Of a DNA stretch of 37,432 nucleotides, positions 17,935-19,134 are shown piece after piece; positions within the stretch are counted from its first letter, which is position 1, and each line of letters starts with the position of its first letter. The DNA comes from Nitrospirota bacterium (GTDB lineage: Bacteria; Nitrospirota; Thermodesulfovibrionia; Thermodesulfovibrionales; UBA6898): NCBI GenBank assembly GCA_003252075.1, contig QKDO01000131.1:1-37432 (forward strand). The letters are read 5' to 3'. The position numbers were made by a program, and so were the translations under genes. The notes under the pieces were generated by a model. It had not been told where the DNA came from. It saw nothing but the letters and a program-made list of their open reading frames with translations, and made no database searches.

Positions 17935-18105
17935 ATGAAAGATACGCTCTATGATGACGAGTCTTCGATTAAGCTGGAGACAGTTCCCGAATATGTGACA
18001 TGCCCGAAATGTGGCGGTGAAATAGGGCTATGGACAGGGTCAATCCTGACGGTCTGCTGGTTCTGCGGCTTCCATGCCTTCAAGAAGGAGACGATCATTA
18101 ATTAG
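17935..18105 (+). CDS. 56-residue zinc-ribbon protein
   Basis: ATG 17935 follows AAAGGAG at a normal distance and the frame ends TAG at 18103-18105. The N-terminus is acidic (KDTLYDDESS), followed by VTCPKCGGEIGLW and CWFCGFHAFKK. The two CxxC pairs are separated by about 15 residues, the layout of a rubredoxin-like or zinc-ribbon domain. It probably binds zinc or iron. It lies 57 bp upstream of the selenoprotein peroxiredoxin and may be in the same operon. I know no named family for it. Confidence 0.75.
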   Translation: MKDTLYDDESSIKLETVPEYVTCPKCGGEIGLWTGSILTVCWFCGFHAFKKETIIN

Positions 18106-18162: not shown

Positions 18163-18771
18163 ATGAGCGAGCACTATGGTATAAGAGTCGGCGATACGGT
18201 CCCGGATTTCAAGATCGAGACGTATGACCCGTCGAAGGGCGATTTCGGCGAAATCAGCCTGGCAGAATTAAAGGCGGGCAAGAAGTGGACCGTGCTCTTC
18301 TTTTATCCGGCTGATTTTACTTTTGTTTGAGCAACGGAGTTTGCTGCTCTGGCAGAGCAGCATGAGCATTTCAAGGCGCTGGGTGCAGAGCTTATTACGG
18401 TGAGCACCGACACGAAGTTCGTCCATCTCGCATGGCAGAGGGATGAGAAGATGCTTGAGAAGGTCAGGTACATCATGGGCTCTGATCCGAATGCTCGTAT
18501 TTCCAAGATCTTTGGCGTCTACGATAAAGAGGCCGGCCTCGACCTGCGGGGGACATTCATCATCAGTCCCGACGGTGTCCTCATGAACTCTGAGGTGAAC
18601 TATTTCAATATGGGAAGGAATGTTGAGGAGATACTGCGAAAGGTAAAGGCTAACCTCTATCTTTCTTCTCACCAGAACGAAGGGTGCCCTGCAAAATGGA
18701 CGAAGGAAGGCGACAAGACGCTGAAGCCCTCGGCTGAGCTGGTAGGCAGAGTTTTCTATGCTCTTGAATAG
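18163..18771 (+). CDS. Selenocysteine-containing 2-Cys type peroxiredoxin (AhpC/Prx1-like)
   Basis: A 202-residue peroxiredoxin that reads through an in-frame TGA at 18328-18330 (residue 56). The TGA falls exactly at the peroxidatic Cys: PADFTFV-U-ATEF matches the PxxxTxxC catalytic motif (Pro49, Thr53, U56). The same frame continues with AhpC-type sequence through DLRGTFIISPDG to NEGCPAKW, whose Cys175 is the expected resolving residue. Start ATG 18163 has GGAGGAG upstream. A SECIS-like hairpin begins 12 bases after the TGA. It would reduce peroxides, with Sec giving faster chemistry. If the TGA were a true stop, the protein would end before the active site, and the downstream part would lack it. 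No other frame disruption is visible. Confidence 0.9.
18343..18361 (+). promoter_or_regulatory. Bacterial SECIS-like hairpin for Sec insertion
   Basis: A perfect 8-bp stem (GCTGCTCT/AGAGCAGC), extendable by one T-A pair, closes a GGC loop. It starts 12 bases after TGA, and its loop G lies 23 bases from the TGA, within the window known for bacterial SECIS elements. A G at the first loop position fits the SelB recognition pattern. It is inside the coding region, as bacterial SECIS elements are. Confidence 0.75.
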
Positions 18772-18807: not shown

Positions 18808-19134
18808 ATGGCAAAACTGCCGGGTCAGTTCATGAGCATCAGGAAGCGGTTTGAGAAGTATTTCAAGGCGGTCGAGAATCTCGGCAAAGAGGCACGGGTT
18901 GCAGGACCGCTGAACAAAAAGACAGCGCATCTCATACAGCTTGCGGCTGCGGCTGCGATCCGGTCTGAGGGGTCTGTTCATTCCCATACAAGGAGAGCGC
19001 TGGAGTCAGGAGCGAAGCCCGCAGAGATCTATCACGCCATCATCGTGCTGACGAGCACGATAGGGTTTCCTACCGTATCTGCTGCGCTGAGCTGGGCTGA
19101 TGACGTGATCAGTGAGAAAGCAAAGAAAAAGTAG
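18808..19134 (+). CDS. Carboxymuconolactone decarboxylase-like protein lacking the CxxC
   Basis: A 108-residue helical protein of the CMD/AhpD superfamily. AhpD uses a CxxC plus His to reduce peroxiredoxins. Here the motif reads RSEGSVHSH, where the family norm is CEGC followed by xxxH, so both Cys are Ser while the His is kept. GALE-type helix sequence (RRALESGAKPAEIYHAI) and TIGFPTVSAALSW follow. AGGAGGGGACG lies before the ATG. It starts 36 bp after the peroxiredoxin stop and may share its transcript. Without the Cys pair a thiol role is unlikely; it could be structural, regulatory or act on another substrate. Some CMD homologues have lost the Cys too. Confidence 0.85.
   Translation: MAKLPGQFMSIRKRFEKYFKAVENLGKEARVAGPLNKKTAHLIQLAAAAAIRSEGSVHSHTRRALESGAKPAEIYHAIIVLTSTIGFPTVSAALSWADDVISEKAKKK

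Follow-up and report, generated by a model that had tools for sequence, protein, structure and literature searches.

A predicted selenocysteine-containing AhpC-type peroxiredoxin from a Nitrospirota bacterium and the exchange of Sec and Cys among its homologues

A gene lying within a 37,432-nucleotide stretch of DNA from a Nitrospirota bacterium (hereafter the window) almost certainly encodes an AhpC-type 2-Cys peroxiredoxin with selenocysteine (Sec) as its predicted peroxidatic residue, the in-frame UGA being read by means of a SECIS hairpin that lies just downstream. Comparison of homologous sequences suggests that the protein probably belongs to a distinct AhpC-like Sec subfamily that extends across Nitrospirota and has undergone repeated Sec/Cys exchange, including a recent reversal (gene L038 of genome G025) that has left a decaying SECIS relic.

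The interrupted gene and its homologues

The reading frame starts at an ATG that follows a Shine-Dalgarno-like GGAGGAG, contains one internal TGA and ends with TAG. The features of the gene are listed here with the evidence for each.

18163..18771, + strand: predicted Sec-containing AhpC-type 2-Cys peroxiredoxin, 202 residues with TGA read as Sec (TGA=U translation, Pfam AhpC-TSA, 36 TGA homologues)
18328..18330, + strand: TGA, predicted Sec codon 56, at the peroxidatic position of PxxxTxxU (aligns with the peroxidatic Cys of AhpC and with TGC/TGT of Cys homologues)
18342..18362, + strand: SECIS hairpin, 9-bp stem with a GGC loop at 18351-18353 (fold, covariation, synonymous freeze)
18685..18687, + strand: codon of the resolving Cys175, CPAKW motif (GCPAKW) (sequence, AhpC alignment, invariant in the family)

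A first-pass annotation of this DNA had placed the TGA at the catalytic Cys site of a frame otherwise intact over 202 codons, with Cys175 kept, and translation with TGA as U, together with alignment to AhpC and to the Cys homologues, bears this out. It had also foreseen that automatic gene calling would split or truncate the gene; ordinary ORF calling returns only a 123-residue fragment (18400-18771). The full translation matches Pfam AhpC-TSA at 2.4e-34, and its best sequence matches in the PDB are AhpC proteins, with U56 aligned to the peroxidatic Cys and C175 to the resolving Cys. P49, T53, residue 56, R129 and C175 are invariant across the family alignment, which accounts for the 2-Cys peroxiredoxin motif, the Arg and the resolving Cys. 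The predicted model (mean pLDDT of 82) matches AhpC and Prx1-type structures, its C-terminal part, including the resolving Cys, being of low confidence.

Homologues with E values of 1e-30 or better occur in 123 of the 296 genomes of the phylum. The majority of the close homologues contain one TGA and the others none; the TGA is at the same place in 36 distinct Nitrospirota genes, and 10 others have Cys there. We considered that a TGC or TGT codon had mutated to TGA, or had been misread as TGA, in which case the protein would be truncated. A single-base change would be enough for this and the assembly is a fragmented draft, but the identical TGA recurs in 36 distinct genes from separate assemblies and the sequence past it is under purifying selection (Nei-Gojobori dN/dS values of 0.04-0.19 against seven congeners, where dS ranges from 0.1 to about 2), which makes a pseudogene or an error vanishingly improbable. 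Because of this selection, the part downstream of the TGA can be taken, from the sequence comparisons, to be translated and functional. A stop, a frameshift or decay in close relatives had been named at first pass as an observation that would count against Sec; the relatives instead keep the frame intact past the TGA, and others carry Cys.

The SECIS hairpin

The hairpin first described as an 8-bp stem with a GGC loop, 12 bases past the TGA, is real and gains a ninth pair: positions 18343-18350 pair with 18354-18361, and a U-A pair joins 18342 to 18362. It starts 11-12 nt past the TGA, and the distance from the UGA to the loop is 20 nt. Taken alone, the hairpin is only moderately improbable and counts as suggestive but not decisive. 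When the same peptide was recoded synonymously, 7 of 5000 versions reached the stability of the native hairpin, and of the 1465 TGA triplets found in the window on both strands and in all frames, 11 have a hairpin of this type at the right spacing. For the 79 nt surrounding the TGA the folding energy was unremarkable (z of -0.03) and is not counted as evidence, and Rfam searches of the window, the peroxiredoxin locus and the SelD locus returned no matches.

The hairpin becomes decisive because the TGA is accompanied by the GGC loop in 36 of 36 distinct TGA homologues, all from the same phylum, and because the stem covaries. Among 35 distinct stretches, three pairs have changed on both sides, the compensatory changes keeping the stem, and 95.7% of stem cells are paired in the 36 TGA genes compared with 60% in the 10 Cys homologues. 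The observed covariation score exceeds those of all 500 shuffles, a significance that is overstated since the sequences share descent; the sliding control, in which slid versions score far lower, and the comparison with the Cys forms are less exposed to this. One covariation links two codons: as the unconstrained last base of Ala61 varies (GCT, GCG, GCC), so does the second base of codon 66 (CAG, CTG, CGG). Codons +6 to +9, which form the top of the stem and the loop, are the four most synonymously invariant of 81 codons for conserved residues, and the same codons in the Cys homologues read CTT, GCC, GAA and others.

Selenocysteine machinery, decoding and gene context

The source genome (2.86 Mb, 146 contigs, 96% complete) carries the genes for SelA and SelB side by side on contig C9 and that for SelD on C5, and all three proteins score above curated cut-offs. 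The SelD gene is itself a predicted selenoprotein gene, interrupted by a TGA that replaces Cys in a CAGU motif (L110 727-729, G000:C5). The search for selA, selB, selC and selD that was advised at the outset thus succeeded for the three proteins and failed for selC, as neither ARAGORN nor the tRNA-Sec model found a tRNA-Sec in the source assembly, only other tRNAs (for example Ser, Trp, Leu and Tyr). The likely and simplest explanation is an assembly gap, though not a proven one: all seven congeners have a tRNA-Sec above the Rfam cut-off, with the anticodon TCA where this was checked with ARAGORN.

The flanks of tRNA-Sec are not conserved among the congeners. When the tRNA-Sec region of the nearest congener, G005, was compared with the source genome, only two short pieces of the tRNA 3'-end matched, L113 1495-1565 (G000:C71) and L114 1501-1531 (G000:C123). 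These pieces are possibly remnants of integration at selC; a gene about 0.5 kb from one of them looks like an IS110-type transposase, and no integrase was seen.

The same pieces, and the absence of tRNA-Sec from an assembly that is 96% complete, would fit a source lineage that has lost tRNA-Sec, with Sec insertion genuine in the family and the present gene a recent relic. We consider such a loss very improbable, given that the genes for SelA, SelB and SelD are intact, the last with its own TGA, that the peroxiredoxin gene shares 96% identity with its counterpart in G005, a genome that does have tRNA-Sec, and that two other drafts of the family (G013 and G018) also lack tRNA-Sec, as gaps would give. 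The missing tRNA would also suit a UGA read as an amino acid other than Sec, through a change of code or as Cys through an unusual tRNA, and in other systems UGA is known to specify Trp, Gly or Cys. However, UGA is not generally reassigned, because TGA terminates 18 of the 38 genes of the window; in addition, SelA, SelB and SelD are present and retention of the hairpin is confined to genes with TGA at this codon, and decoding as another amino acid is therefore extremely improbable.

Insertion of Sec at codon 56, the interpretation offered at first pass, is thus supported by the Sel genes, the conserved TGA and hairpin and the intact frame, from which we infer it. With the ribosome at the UGA, SelB carrying Sec-tRNA(Sec) would be bound by the hairpin that starts 11-12 nt further on, and Sec would be inserted in place of termination. 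U56, activated by P49, T53 and R129, would reduce peroxide and be converted to a selenenic acid. The partner subunit's C175 would resolve this to a selenenylsulfide, to be reduced in turn by an AhpF-type or thioredoxin-type disulfide reductase. Two proteins are candidates for this reductant: one is AhpF-like, scoring 314 bits where the AhpF cut-off is 503, and the other is a second protein that resembles a reductase.

Two small genes flank the peroxiredoxin gene.

17935-18105, upstream of the peroxiredoxin gene: small protein with two Cys pairs, zinc ribbon-like (no Pfam match)
18808..19134, + strand: CMD-family protein, 108 residues (Pfam CMD 1.4e-16, synteny)

The CMD-family gene adjoins the peroxiredoxin gene on its downstream side in all congeners, and the two are possibly on one transcript. 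In its product, Ser replaces each Cys of the AhpD-type CxxC, and the protein is unlikely to act as a redox AhpD. The protein with two Cys pairs is encoded upstream in 7 of the 8 genomes of the genus, and similar proteins are found upstream in G016, G017 and G025. On the opposite strand are genes for a cytochrome bd oxidase, an Rrf2 regulator and a COX1-type oxidase, and in other relatives the peroxiredoxin gene lies beside genes for Fur-family proteins, rubrerythrin, desulfoferrodoxin or hemerythrin. A role in peroxide and oxygen defence is a natural inference. Matches to PHROGs were weak only, and there is thus no sign of a phage gene.

Exchange of Sec and Cys, and comparison with known peroxiredoxins

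A tree built with residue 56 masked requires at least five changes between Sec and Cys, two of them forced by well-supported branches; it is a quick tree with many weak branches, and the count is rough. One Cys gene, L038 (G025:C136), groups with the Sec gene of G017 (SH-aLRT of 94) and is nested among Sec forms of the same family. The 10 Cys homologues have no proper hairpin, and L038 keeps a decayed copy, in which synonymous differences from its neighbours remove the first G of the loop and break one stem pair while 7 of the 9 pairs remain. L038 thus appears, from its sequence and position in the tree, to be a Sec-to-Cys reversal with a SECIS relic. A survey from 2006 counted five Cys-to-Sec and no Sec-to-Cys events in peroxiredoxins (PMC1794560).

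A second, distant group of peroxiredoxins (about 45% identity, motif PGDFTFVU) also has a TGA at the peroxidatic position, in L105-L109 of genomes G022, G056, G035, G036 and G048, and its hairpins differ from those of the main group, with loops such as AGUU or GGUC. By sequence, these genes represent a second predicted Sec-peroxiredoxin lineage in the same phylum. In L109 (G048:C1), a TAA in the same frame precedes the TGA at a codon that is Lys in its relatives; it is either a real nonsense change or a draft error.

The occurrence of Sec-containing peroxiredoxins in some bacteria, noted in the first-pass annotation, has been described before (PMC1088965, PMC1794560, PMC13188914), and the PxxxTxxU type is an established selenoprotein family (PMC9312934, PMC13188914). 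Our literature search found no paper on the Nitrospirota peroxiredoxin gene, which does not mean that none exists. The gene is a clear but fairly ordinary addition to a selenoprotein family that has been known for some two decades. Its most interesting aspect is the natural series of Sec/Cys exchanges, with the apparent reversal to Cys; the series, which spans genes with Sec, genes with Cys and one Cys gene still bearing a SECIS relic, offers a test of what selenium brings to a peroxidase and of how a SECIS element decays once it is unneeded. In addition, a gene cut short by ordinary calling is now corrected in many genomes of one phylum.

Three known groups invite comparison. With PrxU (TxxU; NCBIfam NF040737), known from Eubacterium acidaminophilum (Sohling et al. 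2001, as cited in PMC9312934 and PMC13188914), the present protein shares a predicted peroxidatic Sec in PxxxTxxU, a UGA within the coding region with a SECIS, and the AhpC-TSA fold, but at 194.8 bits it falls below the equivalog cut-off of 270 and is assigned to a different subfamily. A COG0450 (AhpC-type) peroxiredoxin-like selenoprotein was listed in 2005 in the Sargasso Sea survey (PMC1088965); judged by its similarity to AhpC, the present protein would fall in the same COG. The Sargasso sequences are marine, and the comparison is made at the level of the COG. AhpC itself (TIGR03137) has in common with it the fold, the active-site motif, the Arg and the resolving Cys in CPAKW; it differs in that Sec would replace the peroxidatic Cys, and the present protein scores 200.9 bits against an equivalog cut-off of 272. 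Because it lies below both equivalog cut-offs, the protein is placed by sequence in a subfamily neighbouring AhpC and PrxU.
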